Below, one piece after another: positions 1 to 7,296 of a stretch of 7,296 nucleotides of DNA. This stretch comes from Candidatus Pelagibacter sp. Lineage in GTDB: Bacteria > Pseudomonadota > Alphaproteobacteria > Pelagibacterales > Pelagibacteraceae. Where the stretch lies: contig NZKC01000010.1 of the NCBI GenBank assembly GCA_002692475.1, positions 1 to 7,296 of the forward strand, written 5' to 3'. Both the position numbers and the translations under genes were made by a program. How positions within the stretch are numbered: position 1 is the first letter of the stretch; the number at the start of each line of letters is the position of its first letter. The notes beneath the pieces were generated by a model. That model searched no databases. It saw only the letters and a program-made list of their open reading frames with translations, and was not told the DNA's origin.

Positions 1-308
1 TCTTTTTTTCTATCTTTTTTTGGAACAGCTTTAATTGGATTGTTGCCATTTGCTGGCATTTTAATTAACTCTTGTTCACCAAGTATTCTTGCAACTCTAG
101 TTGTTGGTTGTGCACCTTGGCTCAGCCAATATTTGATTCTATCTGTTTGTAAGCCAATTCTCTCTTTTTTCTCTTTTGGTAAAAGAGGATTAAAAAATCC
201 TAATTTTTCGATAAATTTACCATCCCTTGGAAATTTACTATCGGCAACAACTATTTTATATACCGGTCTTTTTTTAGTTCCTCCCATTGATAATCTTAGT
301 TTTAGCAT
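1..308 (-). CDS. rpsP: 30S ribosomal protein bS16 (3' end outside the window)
   Basis: This gene encodes small-subunit ribosomal protein bS16, which binds 16S rRNA and helps 30S assembly. Translating the minus strand from the ATG at 308-306 gives 102 residues before the window edge. The start [20 protein letters not shown], then [22 protein letters not shown] at about 20-41 and [14 protein letters not shown] at about 56-69, are the hallmark S16 blocks. The visible tail after residue 85 is lysine-rich, as in the C-terminal extensions of alphaproteobacterial S16; the stop codon is not seen. The start is supported by a strong Shine-Dalgarno AAGGAG (318-313) four bases upstream. The gene follows ffh by 14 bases in the same direction, matching the widespread ffh-rpsP-rimM-trmD-rplS order (known from other bacteria; the later genes are not in view). 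It is probably co-transcribed with ffh. Confidence 0.96.
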
Positions 309-312
309 TGTT

Positions 313-318
313 CTCCTT
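313..318 (-). promoter_or_regulatory. Shine-Dalgarno site of rpsP
   Basis: The minus strand reads AAGGAG four bases before the rpsP ATG, inside the 14-base ffh-rpsP spacer. It is the only near-perfect Shine-Dalgarno match before any start codon in this window. The other genes start after A/T-rich sequence or directly at an upstream stop codon. It fixes the rpsP start. Confidence 0.8.
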
Positions 319-322
319 TTTG

Positions 323-1681
323 TTATTTAAGTTGATTAAAAAGTTCAGGCGGAATACCTTTATCTGCCATTCCTTTCATATTTCCTTTTGACATTTTTTT
401 CATCATTTCTGACATCATTTTAAATTGTTTTAACAATTTATTGATACTGGCTATGTCTGTACCTGAGCCATTAGCAATTCTTTTTTTTCTTGATCCATCA
501 ATTATTTTTGGATTTTGTCTTTCTTTTTTAGTCATTGATAAAATTACTGCTTCATTTTGAGTAATAACTTTTTCATCTACACCTGACTGATCCATCTGAG
601 ATTTAATTTTAGAAACTCCAGGAAGGAATGACATAATGCCTTCAATGCCTCCCATTTTTTTCATTTGCTTTAATTGAGATAAGTAATCTTCCAAAGAAAA
701 CTGACCTTTTTTTAAATTTTCCTCTGTTTTTTTTAAATTTTCTTCATCTAGATCTTCTGCTGCTTTTTCTACTAGGGTGACTATATCTCCCATTCCTAAA
801 ATTCTATTGGCAATTCTCTCGGGATAAAAAACTTCAAGATTTTCTATTTTTTCCCCAACACCTAAAAATTTAATTGGGACGTCTGCAACATATTTCATAC
901 TTAAAGCAGCACCACCTCTTCCATCACCATCAGATCTTGTAAGTATAATACCTGATAGACTTACAGTATTTTTAAATTCCTTAGCCACATTCGCAGCGAC
1001 TTGTCCTGTGAGAGAATCTGCTACCAAAATAGTCTCAACAGGATTTATAATTTCCTCAATTTGTTTTATCTCATTCATCATTTGTAAATCAATTTGTGTT
1101 CTACCTGCTGTATCAAATAATATAACTTCAGAACCATTGAGACTTGCAGCACTTAATGCTCTTCTGCATATATCTATTGGTTGTTGTCCTTCAATAGCTG
1201 GTAGAGTATTTATGTTATGCTGCTCTCCCAAAAGTCTTAGCTGTTCTTGGGCTGCGGGTCGATAGATATCTAAACTTACCATCATAACTTTCTTCTTTTT
1301 ATTTTTTTCCAAAAATTTTGCTAATTTTGCTGTTGTAGTAGTTTTTCCAGAACCCTGTAAACCAACCATCATCATAGATACTGGTGGAACTGCATTAAGA
1401 TTTAAATCAGAACTTTCGCTTCCAAGTAAACTAATCAATTCATCATTTACTATCTTAACCACCATTTGACCTGGAGATGTTGATCTTATTATCTCTTGCC
1501 CCAATGCTTTTGGTTTGATTTTATTTATAAAATCTTTAGCAACTTCTAAAGAAACGTCTGCTTCTATTAGAGCTAAACGAATACTTCTTAATCCTTCGTC
1601 TACTTGTTTTTCATCAAGCGAAGCCGACTTTTTTAAAGAAGAAAATATTTCTTCAAATTTATTTGTTAAATTCTCAAACAT
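323..1681 (-). CDS. ffh: Signal recognition particle protein Ffh (SRP54)
   Basis: Ffh is the GTPase that, with 4.5S RNA, binds signal sequences emerging from the ribosome and docks with FtsY at the inner membrane. The 452-residue protein has the full family layout and usual length. It comprises a helical N domain (about 1-95), a G domain with P-loop GLQGSGKT (107-114), DIYRPAA (138-144), DTAGR (190-194), [10 protein letters not shown] (248-257) and GVGEK (274-278), then a methionine-rich M domain (about 310-452). The M domain contains the RNA-binding segment [12 protein letters not shown] (397-408). The G4 motif is TRSD rather than TKLD; from memory, TRxD is common in alphaproteobacterial Ffh, so I read this as lineage-typical. 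The gene lies immediately upstream of rpsP and behind a 100-base structured leader (1690-1789). The ATG is preceded only by a weak GGA, eight to ten bases upstream. Confidence 0.97.
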
Positions 1682-1689
1682 AATTTTTT

Positions 1690-1789
1690 CCAGCAGTTAA
1701 CGCACCAGTGGGCGAACCCTCGCTAACTGGTGTCGATCTCTTTGTTACCAAAGACACCGCAAATTGCTGATTTTGCGGAAACATCGACA
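1690..1789 (-). ncRNA. Structured RNA candidate in the ffh leader (unrecognised family)
   Basis: This G+C-rich block (49% over 1691-1790 in a roughly 20-30% G+C setting) folds well as a minus-strand RNA. P1 pairs 1783-1789 with 1731-1737 (UGUCGAU/AUCGACA) and encloses two hairpins. P2 is CCGCAAA/UUUGCGG (1772-1778 with 1757-1763) with an eight-base loop. P3 is UCUUUG/CAAAGA (1749-1754 with 1739-1744), capped by GUAA. After the junction, one strand can form helix A (1726-1732 with 1703-1709) or helix B (1721-1729 with 1694-1702), which exclude each other. The minus strand is favoured because only there is the P3 loop a GNRA tetraloop and helix B complete through a G-U pair (A-C mismatch on the plus strand). 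The structure ends eight bases before the ffh ATG, so a cis-acting leader is more likely than a free RNA. I do not recognise it as SRP RNA, tRNA, tmRNA or a named riboswitch. Confidence 0.65.
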
Positions 1790-1798
1790 AACTATAAT
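1771..1798 (+). promoter_or_regulatory. Probable dapF-ftsY promoter
   Basis: A perfect TATAAT lies at 1793-1798. Sixteen bases upstream is TTTTGC (1771-1776), a poor -35 match, so the -10 carries most of the evidence. Transcription would start near 1804-1806 and leave a leader of about 35 bases, very A/T-rich and without a Shine-Dalgarno sequence. The -10 is nearly palindromic (CTATAATAG) and shares its bases with the candidate ffh -10 on the other strand. Confidence 0.45.
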
Positions 1799-1816
1799 AG
1801 AGGTTCAAAAAGTCAA
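1791..1816 (-). promoter_or_regulatory. Possible ffh promoter overlapping the dapF -10 element
   Basis: On the minus strand, TATTAT (1799-1794) or the overlapping TATAGT (1796-1791) resembles a -10 box. Starting six bases after TATTAT would place the first nucleotide at G1788, in the first base pairs of helix P1. The best -35-like hexamer, TTGACT (1816-1811), is only 11 or 14 bases upstream instead of about 17, so the -35 assignment is weak. The position relative to the structured leader is the main support. Confidence 0.35.
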
Positions 1817-1839
1817 TAAATAAGTTAAGTATTAAATAT

Positions 1840-2664
1840 ATGGAATTTAAAGCTTATAAAATGGATGGTTTGGGTAACGATTTTATAATTATTGATAATA
1901 GAGATAAAGATATAAATTTAACTCAAGATCAAATAATAAAAATTTGTGATCGGAATTTTATTGGATGCGATCAATTAATTTTTATTAATAAAAGTGAGAA
2001 TTCTGATGGCTCACTGAAATTTTTCAATTCTGATGGGGGTATTTCAGGTGCATGTGGAAATGGGACTAGGTGTGCAGCAGAACTAATTGCAAAAGAAAAT
2101 AATAAAAAACAAATATATTTAAGTACAATATCAGGAAACTTAAAATCTGATATTATGGGAAATAACATTGTAACTACAGAAATAGGACCGGCAAAAACTA
2201 AATGGGATCAAATTCCATTATCTAAAGAATTAAATACAAAAAATCTCAATATGAAAATTATTGATATTAAAAAAAATGAACTAAGGGGTGGTACAGCAAT
2301 CAATGTAGGTAATCCTCATATAGTTTTCTTTGTTAGGGATATAAATAGTTTTAATATAATTAAAATTGGTCCTGAAATTGAAAATCATGAATTATTTCCA
2401 GAAAAAATAAATGTAACCTTGGCATCAGTTGTTAATAAAAATTTAATTAAAATAAATGTATGGGAAAGAGGTGCTGGTAATACAAAAGCTTGTGGAACCG
2501 CTGCATGTGCTACAGCAGTTGCGGGGAAAATAAATGGGTTAACTGAAAACAATGTTGATATAGAATTTTTAAAAGGCAAATTATCAATTAAAATTGATGA
2601 AAAAAATTCTATCCATATGACGGGACCAGTTTCTGATATAAAAGAAATAAATGTCAAATTATAA
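1840..2664 (+). CDS. dapF: Diaminopimelate epimerase
   Basis: DapF converts LL-diaminopimelate to the meso form, the precursor of lysine and of peptidoglycan cross-links; it is cytoplasmic and cofactor-free. The 274-residue length is typical. Conserved blocks are in order: MDGLGNDFIIID (8-19), NSDGG (63-67), ACGNGTRC (71-78) with the first catalytic Cys at 72, GNPH (157-160), WERGAGNTKACGT (208-220) with the second catalytic Cys at 218, and MTGPV (260-264). Both halves of the two-fold pseudo-symmetric DapF fold are present, so the enzyme should be active. The ATG at 1840 puts the GLGNDF motif at the usual distance from the N terminus; no clear Shine-Dalgarno precedes it. Its TAA overlaps the ftsY ATG by one base (TAATG), so the two are surely one transcript with coupled translation. 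Confidence 0.97.
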   Translation: MEFKAYKMDGLGNDFIIIDNRDKDINLTQDQIIKICDRNFIGCDQLIFINKSENSDGSLKFFNSDGGISGACGNGTRCAAELIAKENNKKQIYLSTISGNLKSDIMGNNIVTTEIGPAKTKWDQIPLSKELNTKNLNMKIIDIKKNELRGGTAINVGNPHIVFFVRDINSFNIIKIGPEIENHELFPEKINVTLASVVNKNLIKINVWERGAGNTKACGTAACATAVAGKINGLTENNVDIEFLKGKLSIKIDEKNSIHMTGPVSDIKEINVKL

Positions 2665-3581
2665 TGAGTATTTTTGAGAAATTTAAAATAGGCTTTAAAA
2701 AAAGTGCAGAAAATATTTCCTCTGGTTTTAGGGAAATTTTAATTAAAAAAGAAATTGATGATAATTCACTTGATAAAATTGAAGAATTTTTAATTTCTTC
2801 TGATGTGGGTATCGATTCAGCTTCCGAAATAAGAAATATTTTAGCTCAAGAAAAAATCGATCCAAATTTAGATATTATAAAAGAAATAAATAAAATTTTA
2901 AAAAATTATATTATTTCTAGTATGACCCCTTTTGAAAAAAAAGAGTTTTTCAATAAAAATGAAAATTTGAATGTAGTATTGATAGCTGGTGTAAATGGTT
3001 CTGGAAAAACAACTACTATTGGTAAAATTGCAAAAATATTTAAACAGAACAATAATAAAGTAATTTTATCAGCATCTGATACTTTTAGAGCAGCTGCAAT
3101 TGAACAGCTAGAAAATTGGGCAAATAAAATTGGTGTTAATATAATTAAATCAACACAAGGGTCTGACCCAGCTTCAGTGGCTTACAAAGCTATGGAATTT
3201 GCTAATAAAAATAATTTTAACCAATTGATTATTGACACAGCAGGTAGATTACAAAATAAAAAAAATTTAATGGAAGAGTATAAAAAAATTGCAAATGTTG
3301 TTAAAAAAATAGATGAAAAAGCACCAAATGAAATAGTGCTAGTTTTAGATGCTACCTCAGGTCAAAATATACTTAATCAAGTCGAAGAATTTAACAAAAT
3401 TATACCATTAACTGGATTAATAATGACTAAATTAGATGGTACCGCGAAAGGTGGAATACTCTTAGCTTTAACAAAAAAATATAAAATTCCAATTATAGGT
3501 TTGGGTCTAGGTGAAAAAGAAGATGATTTACAAATCTTTGACGTAGAAAAATTTGCAGACGCATTTACACAAATTAATTAA
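2664..3581 (+). CDS. ftsY: Signal recognition particle receptor FtsY
   Basis: FtsY is the membrane-associated SRP receptor; its GTPase domain pairs with that of Ffh to hand ribosome-nascent chain complexes to the translocon. The 305-residue protein shows P-loop GVNGSGKT (109-116), DTFRAAA (139-145), DTAGR (191-195), TKLDGTAKGG (255-264) and GLGEKEDDL (281-289). The DTFRAAA, TKLDGTAKGG and GEKEDDL forms are typical of FtsY rather than Ffh. The long acidic A domain of the E. coli protein is absent. The chain begins directly with a short amphipathic, lysine-rich segment (residues 1-23, FEKFKIGFKKS...), the likely lipid-binding helix preceding the N domain. It starts inside the dapF stop codon. 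Its TAA (3579-3581) overlaps the end of the convergent gene by eight bases. Confidence 0.97.
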   Translation: MSIFEKFKIGFKKSAENISSGFREILIKKEIDDNSLDKIEEFLISSDVGIDSASEIRNILAQEKIDPNLDIIKEINKILKNYIISSMTPFEKKEFFNKNENLNVVLIAGVNGSGKTTTIGKIAKIFKQNNNKVILSASDTFRAAAIEQLENWANKIGVNIIKSTQGSDPASVAYKAMEFANKNNFNQLIIDTAGRLQNKKNLMEEYKKIANVVKKIDEKAPNEIVLVLDATSGQNILNQVEEFNKIIPLTGLIMTKLDGTAKGGILLALTKKYKIPIIGLGLGEKEDDLQIFDVEKFADAFTQIN

Positions 3582-4122
3582 TTAAATTCGTTGATATCAA
3601 AGGTTTAAATAAATTACACTCAAACTTTTCATCTAAACCAGCATATCCACAATTTTTAGCATAAGAAGAAATTATAAAACTTAATTTTCCTCCTACTTCT
3701 TCTGATTTTAATTCTCTTTTTTGGATATTAAATTTAAGATTTTTTGAAATATTTTTGTTAGCACTTACCATGATCAATGTATTGTTATCTTCTAATAAAT
3801 AATAAGCAAAATCTTCGGGGAAAACTGGAAAGTCATAATTATCTAAAAATAACTTTGCTTTTTTTGGAAACCACTCATAGGAAATTAAAGGAAAATCTTT
3901 TTTTAAATTATTATCATATAGATAAAGATCCTGAGGGTAATCAGTTATATAATTAAAATCTTCACCTCTAGCTAAAATGGCATTTTCTCTTGTTTTAAAA
4001 TATAAAGTAAATTTTTTATCATATGAAACCATTTTTCCGATATGAAAATAATCGTCTGATGGCTCTGACAATACGGGTTTGCAAATAAGAATAGATAAAA
4101 TAAAAATTACGAGGATTTTCAT
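3574..4122 (-). CDS. Exported protein of unknown function
   Basis: I do not recognise this 182-residue protein. It begins with MKILVIFILSILICKPVLSE, a short basic end, a hydrophobic core and a plausible signal peptidase I site near VLS/EP (about residues 19-20), so the mature protein is probably periplasmic. The cysteine at 14 is not in a convincing lipobox. The mature part is rich in aromatic and charged residues (for example FPVFPEDFAYYLL at 98-110), without further membrane segments. Two cysteines near the C terminus (158 and 169, CGYAGLDEKFEC) could form a disulphide after export. The start has no Shine-Dalgarno. It lies 49 bases after the alpha/beta hydrolase in the same direction with no visible terminator, so it may be the last gene of that operon. 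Its stop overlaps ftsY tail-to-tail by eight bases. Confidence 0.8.
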   Translation of the reverse strand: MKILVIFILSILICKPVLSEPSDDYFHIGKMVSYDKKFTLYFKTRENAILARGEDFNYITDYPQDLYLYDNNLKKDFPLISYEWFPKKAKLFLDNYDFPVFPEDFAYYLLEDNNTLIMVSANKNISKNLKFNIQKRELKSEEVGGKLSFIISSYAKNCGYAGLDEKFECNLFKPLISTNLIN

Positions 4123-4171
4123 AATTTTTAGATTATTATTAAAATTTGAAGGCTATTTGTTTAAAATGTGT

Positions 4172-4978
4172 CTATTTTAAATTATTAATAAATTTTTCAA
4201 TAGCTTTAACTAAATTTTGGTCAAAATTCATCATATGATCATCATATTTTATAAAATATTTTGATTTCGGACTGTTGGCATTCTCATAAATTTTAACCCC
4301 CATACTAAACGGAACGATAGTATCTTTTTCTCCATGCATTACTAAAATTGGGAAATTAATTTCCTTAATTTTTTCCAAAGAATCATATTTATCTTTTAAA
4401 ATCATCTTAATTGGAAAAATTGGGTAATATTTTTTTGCCAATTTCTCCATCGAAGTAAAAGGAGACTCTAGTATTATTCCAGAAAATTTAAAACTCTTTC
4501 CAAGATCTATTGCAATTGCTGTTCCTAAAGACTCCCCATATAAAATAATATTTTGATCATCTATACCTTGATTATTAAGCCAATCTTTTGCTGCTTTAGC
4601 ATCTTTATAAAGGCCCATTTCAGTCGGATTTCCTTTGTTTCCGCTAAAACCTCTATACGCAATTATCAAATAATTTAAATCTAATTTTGCTAATTCATTG
4701 AGTTTATAAATTCTATTATCAAGTCTCCCTGCATTGCCATGAAAAAAAAGTAAAGTTTTGAATTTTGGATTTTTTTGAAAATTCCAAGATACAAGCTTGT
4801 TTTCAGATTGGATATAAACTTTTTCTACTTTGTGATTGAGAGATGTTTCATCTAAATAATTATTTTCGCTTGGATGATAAAGTAACTTTCTTTGGTAAAA
4901 AGATAAAAAAATTATTATAAAAAGGTATATTGCTATTAGTATAAAAAAGGAATTTAATGCAATGCTTCCTATTTTCAT
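4172..4978 (-). CDS. Membrane-anchored alpha/beta hydrolase (BEM46/ABHD13-like)
   Basis: This is a serine hydrolase of the alpha/beta-hydrolase fold, 268 residues, probably held at the inner membrane by one N-terminal helix (about 7-27). The YQRKLLYHPS segment (28-37) directly after that helix is characteristic of the BEM46/ABHD13-like group. Oxyanion-loop motif HGNAG is at 80-84, the nucleophile elbow GESLG at 148-152 (Ser150), the acid in HGEKDTIVP (Asp219) and the histidine in DDH (His248), so the triad looks complete. The substrate is unknown; relatives have been called esterases or peptidases, mostly without biochemical proof. It begins 14 bases after the small membrane protein and is followed after 49 bases by the exported protein, all on the minus strand, consistent with one operon. 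No Shine-Dalgarno is visible. Confidence 0.88.
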   Translation of the reverse strand: MKIGSIALNSFFILIAIYLFIIIFLSFYQRKLLYHPSENNYLDETSLNHKVEKVYIQSENKLVSWNFQKNPKFKTLLFFHGNAGRLDNRIYKLNELAKLDLNYLIIAYRGFSGNKGNPTEMGLYKDAKAAKDWLNNQGIDDQNIILYGESLGTAIAIDLGKSFKFSGIILESPFTSMEKLAKKYYPIFPIKMILKDKYDSLEKIKEINFPILVMHGEKDTIVPFSMGVKIYENANSPKSKYFIKYDDHMMNFDQNLVKAIEKFINNLK

Positions 4979-4992
4979 TATAAGAAAATTAA

Positions 4993-5169
4993 TTAACTTT
5001 TATCAAAAAAGGCTTCGTAAATCATCATTGCAATAGCGATGCCCATTAACAAATAAACTGGAATTACATCTATAAATCCAATCATCATAGATCTTGTTAA
5101 TGTTGTTGCTAAACCTATTAAAAAAAATATAGCAAAAGACAATCCAACAACTGTGGTTAATTTATTCAT
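4993..5169 (-). CDS. Small two-helix membrane protein (58 residues)
   Basis: The minus strand encodes 58 residues from ATG 5169-5167 to TAA 4995-4993, beginning MNKLTTVVGLSFAIFFLIGL. Two hydrophobic stretches (about 5-23 and 34-51) are separated by a short link containing Arg26 and Asp34, and the tail YEAFFDKS is polar, so a hairpin of two membrane helices is likely. I do not recognise a family. The case for a real gene is context. The ATG follows the amidase TAA after one base (TAAAATG), the stop lies 14 bases before the hydrolase start, and the ORF fills the 192-base space between two solid genes with no room wasted. It has no Shine-Dalgarno at useful distance, so translation probably depends on termination of the amidase. 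It is too short and has too few helices to be a TRAP small subunit (normally four helices). Confidence 0.75.
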   Translation of the reverse strand: MNKLTTVVGLSFAIFFLIGLATTLTRSMMIGFIDVIPVYLLMGIAIAMMIYEAFFDKS

Positions 5170-5170
5170 T

Positions 5171-6496
5171 TTAATTCTGACATTCCTTTTCTAGCCATCT
5201 TGCAACCCCTAAAAATCTGTGATCATCATATCTATCACCAACTAATTGAACTCCTAATGGTAAATTATTTTCACCTTCAAGTAAAGGTAGAGAAATACAG
5301 GGTGTGCCTAAATAAGACCAAACTTTATTAAATTCTGCTGTTCCAGTGCTCTTCAGCCCCTTTGGTGCAACACCTGGACTAGAAGGAGTTAAAACACCAT
5401 GATAATCTTCAAAAACTTCTTGATAAGATTCATAACTTCTTTTTTTAAAATCTATTGCTTCCGCGTAATCTTTTGCTGAATGTTTATTGCCTTGTGCTAT
5501 TGCAGTTTGCATATATTTGGATAATTTTGATTTATACTTCTTATAATATAAAGAAAAATTATTTGCTAAATCTGTTTCATGAATAATTTGATGATATTTG
5601 TGTATATCTTTAAAATATGACGGAGTATCAAAAACTTCTATATTTTTAAAAGATTTAATAAAATATTCAAATGCTTCTCTAGATTTTTTATCAACTATTT
5701 TCCAATAATCAGTTTTATAAAAAATAAATTTAGGTTCAAATAATGGGCCTTTTTTAGTTTCTTCTAAAATATTTTCTGCAGAAAAATATACTGTAGCTGG
5801 ATCGTAAGGATCTTTTTTAATTAATACTTTAGCTAGTAATGCAACATCTTCAACACTTCTTGCAAACATGCCTATATGATCCAGCGAGTTTGAGGTTCTT
5901 AAAACACCGTTTCTAGATATTAAACCATAAGATGGTTTATAACCTACCACACCACAATAAGATGCTGGTCTAATTATTGAGCCACCGGTTTGAGATCCAA
6001 TAGACAAGGGTGCCATCAAAGATGCTACAGAAGCAGCCGATCCACTTGATGAGCCACCAGGTGTTCTGGTGTAATCGTGAGGATTAGTTGTTTTTGGTGG
6101 ACTTAGATAAGCTAGTTCAGAAGTAGCTGTCTTACCCATTACAATAGCCCCAGCAGAATTTAAGAGATCAATTATTTCAGCATTTTGTGAGTACGACTTT
6201 CCTTTTCTAATAACAGTTCCACATTCAGTTGGCATATCTACAGTTCCTATTATATCTTTTACCGCAACAGGTATTCCATGCAATGGACCTGTTGGTTTTC
6301 CAGATCTTCTGTGATCATCTGCCTCCGAAGCTTTTTCTAATAAAATTTTTTTATCAAAGTGTGACCAAGCTTTAACTTCTTTTTCAAATTTACTTATTCT
6401 TTCAATATATTTGTTACAAACCTCAACTGAAGTAATTTGTGCATCTTTGATTTTTGTTGCTAGTTCTTCAACACTTAAAGAAAATATATCGATCAT
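5171..6496 (-). CDS. Amidase-signature family hydrolase
   Basis: This enzyme hydrolyses a carboxamide bond using the Ser-cisSer-Lys triad. The 441-residue protein has VAVKDI with catalytic Lys80, the glycine/serine-rich signature TPGGSSSGSAASVA (145-158) with the cis-Ser at 149, and QTGGSIIRPASYCG (169-182) with nucleophile Ser173. The 24-residue distance between the two serines matches that in fatty acid amide hydrolase (known numbering Ser217/Ser241). The C-terminal block GTPCISLPL (397-405) and PLGVQLVG (413-420) is also family-typical. It is not assigned as GatA: no gatB or gatC lies nearby, and the gene sits 11 bases after a TRAP permease gene. That context suggests a catabolic amidase acting on an imported amide or ureide-like compound, but the substrate cannot be read from the sequence. 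No signal peptide is seen, so it is cytoplasmic. Confidence 0.93.
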   Translation of the reverse strand: MIDIFSLSVEELATKIKDAQITSVEVCNKYIERISKFEKEVKAWSHFDKKILLEKASEADDHRRSGKPTGPLHGIPVAVKDIIGTVDMPTECGTVIRKGKSYSQNAEIIDLLNSAGAIVMGKTATSELAYLSPPKTTNPHDYTRTPGGSSSGSAASVASLMAPLSIGSQTGGSIIRPASYCGVVGYKPSYGLISRNGVLRTSNSLDHIGMFARSVEDVALLAKVLIKKDPYDPATVYFSAENILEETKKGPLFEPKFIFYKTDYWKIVDKKSREAFEYFIKSFKNIEVFDTPSYFKDIHKYHQIIHETDLANNFSLYYKKYKSKLSKYMQTAIAQGNKHSAKDYAEAIDFKKRSYESYQEVFEDYHGVLTPSSPGVAPKGLKSTGTAEFNKVWSYLGTPCISLPLLEGENNLPLGVQLVGDRYDDHRFLGVARWLEKECQN

Positions 6497-6507
6497 TTAT
6501 AATCTAT

Positions 6508-7296
6508 TTAAATAGCAAATAATTTTTCTGGCAACCATAAAGCAATTCCTGGAAACCAATACATCAATACCATAGCTAATATTACAATCGCTAAAAATGG
6601 CATAATACCTCTAAATATTTCCATTAATTCAACATTTTTAGACTGTACACCTTTTAAGTAATATGCCGACATGGCCATGGGGGGTGTTAAAAATGATGTT
6701 TGTAAGTTTAATGCAATAAGCATTGCAAAGAAATATGGATTTACACCGAAAAATTCTACTAGTGGTAAAAATATTGGTACAAAAATAATTAATATCTCAG
6801 TCCATTCTAAAGGCCAACCTAATAAAAAAATAATTATTTGGGTTATCACTAAAAACTGCCAAGGTTGAAGATCTAAGGACTTAAAGAAATGTTCAAATAC
6901 TTCATGACCACCTAAATAAGAAAATACAGATGCAAAAGTCCATGAACCAATAAAAAGCCACATAATCATAGCAGTAGTTTTTGCAGTTAAAAATACCGAC
7001 TCTTTAAAATTCTTCCATTTTAGAGTTTTATAAAAATAAGATAGCACTAAAGCACCGAAAGCTCCCACCGCAGCAGCTTCAGCTGGAGTTGCTATACCTG
7101 CAAGAATTGTTCCTAATACTAAAATGATTAATGAAAATAATGGTAGAAATGAAATTAATACTTCTTTCAAAATAACTGCAGTAGGTGGAATTTCTTCAGC
7201 TGCAGGTTTTGGAGCAATAGAAGGATTTAACCACGCTCTAAAAACAGCATAACCAATATAAAGTCCTGCTAACATTAGACCTGGAAATATTGCAGC
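6508..7296 (-). CDS. TRAP transporter large permease subunit, C-terminal part (5' end outside the window)
   Basis: This is the C-terminal 262 residues of a DctM-type TRAP transporter membrane subunit, which couples sodium entry to uptake of organic acids captured by a periplasmic binding protein. The frame stays open through the right edge (residues AAIFPGLMLAGLYIGY), so the ATG at 7275 is internal, not the start. Family marks are ILAGIATPAEAAAVGAFGAL (about 67-86), LGWPLEWTEILIIFVPIFLP (about 159-178) and NLQTSFLTPPMAMSAYYLKG (about 196-215), separated by several long hydrophobic helices, ending with WLPEKLFAI. The partner small subunit and binding protein are expected upstream, beyond the window. 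The stop is 11 bases before the amidase ATG, so the transporter and amidase are probably co-transcribed. Substrate unknown. Confidence 0.93.
   Translation of the reverse strand, partial: AAIFPGLMLAGLYIGYAVFRAWLNPSIAPKPAAEEIPPTAVILKEVLISFLPLFSLIILVLGTILAGIATPAEAAAVGAFGALVLSYFYKTLKWKNFKESVFLTAKTTAMIMWLFIGSWTFASVFSYLGGHEVFEHFFKSLDLQPWQFLVITQIIIFLLGWPLEWTEILIIFVPIFLPLVEFFGVNPYFFAMLIALNLQTSFLTPPMAMSAYYLKGVQSKNVELMEIFRGIMPFLAIVILAMVLMYWFPGIALWLPEKLFAI

Follow-up and report, generated by a model that had tools for sequence, protein, structure and literature searches.

The ffh RNA motif as part of a three-hairpin leader of the rpsP operon in Alphaproteobacteria, with a possible role in transcriptional pausing

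The DNA analysed here, referred to as the window, is the whole stretch of 7,296 nucleotides from Candidatus Pelagibacter sp. (assembly GCA_002692475.1, contig NZKC01000010.1, positions 1 to 7,296). Its first part carries ffh and rpsP on one strand and, divergent from them, dapF and ftsY on the other (Table 1). In the nearest of the SAR11 genomes compared (G001; L349, 1546-3240) the operon continues as rpsP-trmD-rplS, with no rimM between rpsP and trmD. The gap of 158 bases between ffh and dapF contains a block, 1690-1789, that the original prediction had singled out as a G+C-rich island of 49%; our recount gives 50.0% against 29.4% for the window, and 12 of 7197 stretches of 100 nt are equally high. 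The helical segments named in that prediction as P1, P2 and P3 are indeed present in the minus strand and are followed by a hairpin at 1732-1703, here called P4.

Table 1. Leader elements and neighbouring genes, in positions of the window.
Feature	Position	Strand	Basis or remark
rpsP (S16)	3..308	-	TIGR00002, 98.7 bits; extends past the window edge
ffh	323..1681	-	TIGR00959, 575.5 bits; ATG at 1681
Pause-like tail, CGUUAACUGCU followed by GGA	1689..1702	-	G-10 = 1701, U-1 = 1692, G+1 = 1691; spacing, consensus, hisL sequence
P4 hairpin of Rfam RF01793 (ffh), 2x2 internal loop	1703..1732	-	cmscan match; five pairs at E<0.05 (tree-aware)
Conserved linker GAUCGA	1733..1738	-	GAUCGA, GAUCGC or GGUCAA in relatives
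P3 hairpin UCUUUG-GUAA-CAAAGA	1739..1754	-	all 6 pairs change on both sides; five at E<0.05 (A3, tree-aware)
P2 hairpin CCGCAAA-AUCAGCAA-UUUGCGG	1757..1778	-	covaries; two pairs at E<0.05, a third at 0.167 (A3, tree-aware)
-10 element TAGTTT	1789..1794	-	position; 16-nt spacer to -35
-35 element TTGACT of the leader promoter	1811..1816	-	TTGAC upstream of P4 in 184/185 loci (all but L037)
dapF	1840..2664	+	TIGR00652; divergent neighbour of the ffh leader
ftsY	2664..3581	+	TIGR00064; adjoins dapF

An Rfam scan of the window returned RF01793, the ‘ffh’ family, as the sole match above cut-off. It covers 1747-1694 on the minus strand with 48.5 bits (family cut-off 35; E 4.5e-7). The RNA had been put forward as unrecognised, which is wrong for its core, because RF01793 and Meyer 2009 (PMC2704228) already describe P4. 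In that work the motif is listed between dapF and ffh of ‘Cand. Pelagibacter ubique’ and presented as a single bulged hairpin of Rhodobacterales, Sphingomonadales and Rhizobiales, whose bulge holds two conserved C residues. Corbino 2005 makes no mention of ‘ffh’. The original statement that the RNA does not match SRP RNA stood, and a likeness to SRP RNA was dropped, there being no SRP family among the Rfam matches. In the window the hairpin and both C residues on the 3´ side of the internal loop are present, and the 5´ side has a U at 1725, as in L001; the text of Meyer 2009 leaves unspecified which two C are meant. The first position of the loop is C opposite C in 84 of 85 rows of our class-wide alignment, the one remaining row having U opposite C. 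The ffh gene of the window starts 21 nt after P4, in keeping with the 5´-of-ffh location that goes with RF01793; this location is not general, as one family (f51, below) has rpsP instead. The hairpin region had been described as ending eight bases before the ATG, a distance that fits the tail sequence UGCUGG and not the conserved hairpin.

The orientation of the element follows from its promoter, the Rfam match and the gene order. Folding energy gives no strand preference because the block folds equally well on plus and minus (-35.2 kcal/mol on both). The region 1800-1670 folds modestly better than its shuffled versions (z -2.42; 3 of 200 shuffles as good). From the -35 and -10 elements we infer an RNA start near 1782, just before P2. 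The -10 element is weak, and a plain consensus promoter scan did not flag it. The main text of a marine start-site mapping study (PMC5069720) does not mention ffh.

Relatives of the leader were collected by DNA match from 35 of 41 near genomes and from 113 of 147 genomes of the family. RF01793 was found in 58 of 190 genomes of the class at E up to 0.01 (41 over cut-off), in 91 of 386 genomes in a further search (E up to 1e-4), and phylum-wide in 55 of 299 (E up to 1e-3), these genome searches using filters that lose weak matches. All 55 of the phylum-level matches fall in one class, Alphaproteobacteria, and the motif is far from universal in the genomes searched. Seven loci whose P4 was wrongly placed were left out of the reference list. 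Alignment A1, of 30 diverse SAR11-type sequences, was not fitted to the model structure; A2 and A3 were, the latter with 85 class-wide rows. In A1, the positions of P2, P3 and P4 are paired in 98.1% of cells, and two-sided changes number 53 against 14.2 in shuffles, with 0 of 500 shuffles as high. With a model built from A1, searched at E up to 1, every one of 51 sources gave a match to the leader, limited to P4 in six of them. Three spurious matches on the wrong strand or in the wrong place (E 0.016 to 0.25) came with these, so that the weak matches count for little as evidence. A stricter search with this model, at E up to 0.001, placed the leader on the expected strand in 85 of 89 sources (not in L309, L311, L318 and L320).

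Covariation was assessed by a tree-aware test modelled on R-scape but distinct from it: a FastTree phylogeny, parsimony substitutions randomly re-placed, an APC-corrected G statistic and 60 null sets. In A3, from which one reverse-strand row was removed for this purpose, 22 of 24 pairs change on both sides and 12 of 24 reach E<0.05, namely two in P2, five in P3 and five in P4. The 13 highest-ranking column pairs of A3 all belong to the P2/P3/P4 structure, a result favoured by the fitting of A3 to that structure. The same test on A1 was weak, with one structure pair at E 0.017 and the next at 0.167 and 0.217, the last outside the structure. A covariation check of the kind proposed with the original prediction separates the helices: P2, P3 and P4 covary, and P1 has no comparative support. 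Comparison of the sequences gives good support to P2, P3 and P4 as a row of three hairpins in the leaders of many Alphaproteobacteria, and what was first predicted, a structured leader RNA read from the minus strand ahead of the ffh-rpsP unit, is borne out as a conserved element.

The sequence after P4 is conserved in both spacing and composition. Among 74 unique SAR11-family tails, drawn from 126 loci and counted from the end of P4, T stands at +4 in 72, at +8 in 70 and at +11 in 71, and G at +12 in 70 and at +2 in 58. Read as a pause site, a pyrimidine (Y-1) followed by G+1 at exactly 11 nt after P4 is found in 70 of 74 tails and in the window, and G-10 is conserved in 58. All three occur together in 55 tails, against an average of 3.75 and a highest count of 11 over 500 rounds of shuffling. 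At 11 conserved positions, which were chosen after the SAR11 conservation had been seen, the consensus CGAUNNNUGYUGGA is identical to the E. coli hisL sequence CGAUGUGUGCUGGA. At least nine of these hisL-like positions are matched in 59 of 74 tails (at most 1 in shuffles), and ten in the window. Across the SAR11-type loci (568,382 bases, related loci counted apart), the full match, sought on both strands, occurs 42 times adjoining P4 and 0 times elsewhere, and a match at ten positions 33 times adjoining P4 and 14 times elsewhere. Published criteria for his-type pauses are G-10, Y-1 and G+1 and a gap of 10 nt from the stem to the pause site (PMC9291695), and NusA-stimulated pauses have hairpins 10-13 nt upstream (review, PMC12288461). 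The window has a hairpin at such a distance, together with G1701, U1692 and G1691. G1691 lies 10 nt upstream of the ffh ATG and, through its GGA, the tail could double as a weak ribosome-binding site in SAR11.

Elsewhere in the class the tails are less his-like, and pausing is therefore inferred most strongly for SAR11. Among 160 unique non-SAR11 tails, 138 have a YG step with -1 at +10 to +13, in most cases at +12 (106 tails) and in others at +11 (21 tails). No such step falls in this range in 22, and 59 have one at +8. G-10 together with YG occurs in 2 of 43 other alphaproteobacterial tails at a spacing of 12, or in 3 of 43 at a spacing of 11.

The motif is followed by the coding sequence of an Ffh N-terminus in 184 of 188 loci, and in 130 of 136 loci of a second set. 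The first-set exceptions are two loci at contig ends (L063, L077) and two in f51 (L056, L061) in which the motif stands directly before rpsP. In the second set, the exceptions L232 and L275 lie at contig ends, L232 having a partial reading frame that resembles ffh by eye; four loci of this set were left unparsed by the pattern (L237, L316, L324, L325). L337 and L061 denote one place. Downstream on the same strand, rpsP was found at 106 of the 112 motif places given by the 190- and 386-genome searches. It follows at 33-40 nt in five of these, all f51, and at 1.2-5.1 kb in 101, a distance that leaves room for ffh, which was checked only in the 188- and 136-locus sets. The remaining six places are at contig ends, in a genome without an S16 match, or weak motif matches on another contig. 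Two operons were read out in full order. In G001 it is motif-ffh-rpsP-trmD-rplS-leuC, and in G090, an f51 genome, dapF is followed by the motif and then by rpsP-rimM-trmD-rplS-leuC. Thus rpsP, trmD and rplS are constant in the two, ffh being absent from the one and rimM from the other. On this evidence from gene order, the association of the leader with the rpsP operon is well supported.

Family f51 separates the leader from ffh. The motif is present in 14 of its 18 genomes, and in all 15 loci of these 14 genomes S16 is encoded directly downstream, with no ffh. Three f51 loci were tested, and all score above the RF01793 cut-off; the three hairpins are readable, and the 11-nt spacing persists, with YG at 11 nt in 10 of 10 unique tails and G-10 in 2 of 10. 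The four genomes with no RF01793 match (G654, G659, G662, G664), one of them 96% complete, may have lost the leader or carry a diverged one. Ffh is absent at E 1e-60 from the 14 motif-bearing genomes. Nine f51 genomes (G090, G215, G654, G657, G661, G663, G665, G667, G669), one of them without the motif and six at least 93% complete, were also searched for Ffh and FtsY at E up to 1, and the best match was 0.0156. In three other genomes the same search gave Ffh at 5e-164 to 9e-174 and second matches, taken as FtsY, at 1e-53 to 3e-61. SecY was found in eight of the nine, so the f51 genomes are searchable. SRP RNA was found in 0 of 9 f51 genomes against 3 of 3 others, a weak test because the SRP RNA of the SAR11 genome among the latter (G001) itself scores below cut-off, at 36 bits. 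Judging from these searches, f51 seems to be a bacterial family that has lost the SRP pathway. It could be the HIMB59/AEGEAN-169 group. A literature search over mostly titles and abstract openings, with few subscription papers, returned no paper on SRP loss in such a lineage; a passing remark in PMC3264578 says that Pelagibacter has a signal recognition particle protein that is not present in Rickettsiales.

What might such a leader do? The reading that we prefer, and to which we give about an even chance, is a polymerase-pausing leader of the S16/L19 operon. The region would be the 5´ leader of a (ffh-)rpsP-(rimM-)trmD-rplS operon, with ffh a mere passenger gene in its control. RNA starting near 1782 would fold P2, P3 and P4 in a row, and P4, in the RNA exit channel, would stabilise a his-type pause at U1692, the 11th nucleotide after the stem, before G1691. 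The predicted fold of RNA of the paused length, 1782-1692, consists of P2, P3 and P4 and a few extra pairs. The steps that would follow are less certain. The pause might give P2 and P3 time to fold, and the paused leader might be acted on by a product of the operon (S16 in the first place, L19 or TrmD next) or by the ribosome, such action setting the output of the operon. A more specific version is tentative, with the odds against it: that the ‘ffh’ family is misnamed and is an alphaproteobacterial regulator of S16, TrmD and L19, in which P4 would hold a his-like pause and S16 or L19 would read P2-P3.

Further pairings were looked at in the leader. In the predicted fold of the full leader of the window, UUUCC (1781-1777) pairs with GGAAA (1691-1687) before the ATG and opens P2. 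Pairing of this type with at least 6 bp occurs in 19 of 102 distinct SAR11-type pairs and exceeds the permuted level at 2 of 9 positions; with an anchor placed imprecisely the count was 18 of 100, where permutations gave 6.7, the pairs being shared among close relatives. Different clades use different base pairs, and the pairing is not general but a lineage-limited lead. A pseudoknot between the P2 loop UCAGCA and UGCUGG, noted on inspection of the window and of certain relatives, was rejected as the loop changes while CUGCUG stays. In single genomes, inspection likewise suggested that the tail pairs with the variable 5´ segment; this pairing was inconsistent and was dropped, and most of that segment precedes the predicted RNA start. 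A GGUGUC/GACACC pairing was seen by eye only. The sole terminator-like site in 1600-1900 is P2 followed by UGUCUUUGGU (1778-1747).

The strongest competitor is an autogenous ribosomal-protein leader without pausing, in which S16 (or L19 or TrmD) would bind P2-P4 and repress translation or destabilise the mRNA. Such leaders are common, an S16 leader has been proposed in Flavobacteria (PMC7247131), and this RNA stands before a ribosomal-protein operon whose genes rpsP, trmD and rplS were constant in both operons read. It would, however, leave the fixed tail spacing of 11-12 nt unexplained, and outside SAR11 the tail lies at a median of about 39 and up to 110 nt from the start codon (45 loci). 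Mimicry of rRNA, which is frequent in such leaders but not required, was not seen in E. coli rrnB: the model gave no match there, and the only pattern match with three mismatches falls between the tRNA and 23S genes, on the minus strand. We regard this explanation as possible but doubtful.

It is unlikely that P4 is an intrinsic terminator that, with a U-rich tail, ends transcription early as an attenuator. In its favour, 57 of 160 unique non-SAR11 tails carry T at five or more of the eight positions that follow the stem, and Meyer 2009 (PMC2704228) reports the transcript from metatranscriptomic analyses of small RNAs. The same T-rich criterion holds for only 20 of 74 SAR11-family tails and for 0 of 8 f2 tails, and not for the window, where a terminator scan finds none at P4 and the tail CGUUAACUGCU is not a U tract directly after the stem. 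The conserved part is instead the later YG-Y-U-G, at the spacing of a pause and not of a terminator, and the RNA-seq entry for RF01793 in Mesorhizobium spans 441 nt and is not a short RNA (PMC5596092).

Feedback of Ffh (or SRP) on its own mRNA, thought possible by Meyer 2009 (PMC2704228), would suit the regular presence of an Ffh N-terminus after the motif in both locus sets. We consider it very improbable, since 14 genomes from which Ffh is absent at E 1e-60 retain the leader immediately ahead of rpsP, and the best match to Ffh or FtsY in nine f51 genomes, searched at E up to 1, was 0.0156; Ffh binding would then not be the general function of the leader. Meyer 2009 also remarks that the motif does not obviously resemble the portion of 4.5S RNA that binds Ffh. 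Of the ligands named in the original prediction, Ffh is thereby disfavoured, and the link to S16 or L19 becomes the better lead.

A three-way junction aptamer with P1 (UGUCGAU/AUCGACA, 5´ strand 1789-1783, minus) enclosing P2 and P3, the fold originally proposed, has next to no credibility left: its seven complementary pairs, which alone would add about 2.5 kcal/mol on the single sequence of the window, are paired in 43.1% of cells of A1 against 43.9% in shuffles, and the fold of 1800-1670 did not give the junction. All seven pairs score zero or below in the tree-aware test of A1, which has low power here as the 3´ side is nearly invariant. The 5´ strand overlaps the -10 box and discriminator, beginning at the last base of the -10 upstream of the predicted start near 1782, and the last two 3´ bases of P1 overlap the first two of P4. 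The 5´ strand would then lie outside the transcript, and this would account for its variation beside a supposed partner that does not vary.

Returning to the pausing leader, three things are newly added to the published hairpin: the covarying P2 and P3, the pause-like tail at fixed spacing, and the association with rpsP. The tail, the extended architecture and the rpsP association are absent from the literature examined, in which a search over mostly titles and abstract openings, with few subscription papers, gave no paper on pausing or attenuation at the ffh leader. An RNA family without a function since 2009 gains in this way a complete architecture, an operon as its constant target and a mechanism that can be tested. 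If the mechanism is right, it would give control to the trmD operon, for which a 2024 review, in the part consulted, knows of no regulation (PMC10931766), and the leader would have outlived the apparent loss of SRP in one lineage. It would be unusual for a his-type pause to be recognisable by comparative sequence alone across many lineages of one bacterial class, and a family without detectable Ffh, FtsY or SRP RNA is interesting in itself.

Among known systems, the S16 leader of Flavobacteria (Eckert and Weinberg 2020, PMC7247131) is likewise a leader RNA before rpsP-rimM; it belongs to another phylum, and the likeness is one of gene position. NusA- or NusG-stimulated leader pauses in B. subtilis share with the present RNA a hairpin 10-13 nt upstream, located in a 5´ leader; the TTNTTT motif at -11 to -6 is described for that system (PMC12288461). 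The E. coli hisL pause is closer, having a stem, 10 nt and then YG, with G-10 and a similar tail; P4 differs in its longer stem and internal loop, and the likeness here comes from sequence alone. With RF01793 as published (Meyer 2009, PMC2704228) the leader shares the P4 hairpin, the intergenic region, the strand, the distribution in Alphaproteobacteria and conserved C residues of the internal loop, in the window those of the 3´ side. That motif was published as one bulged hairpin before ffh, whereas the leader described here extends it by P2, P3, the linker, a promoter and a pause-like tail, and its constant partner gene is rpsP.
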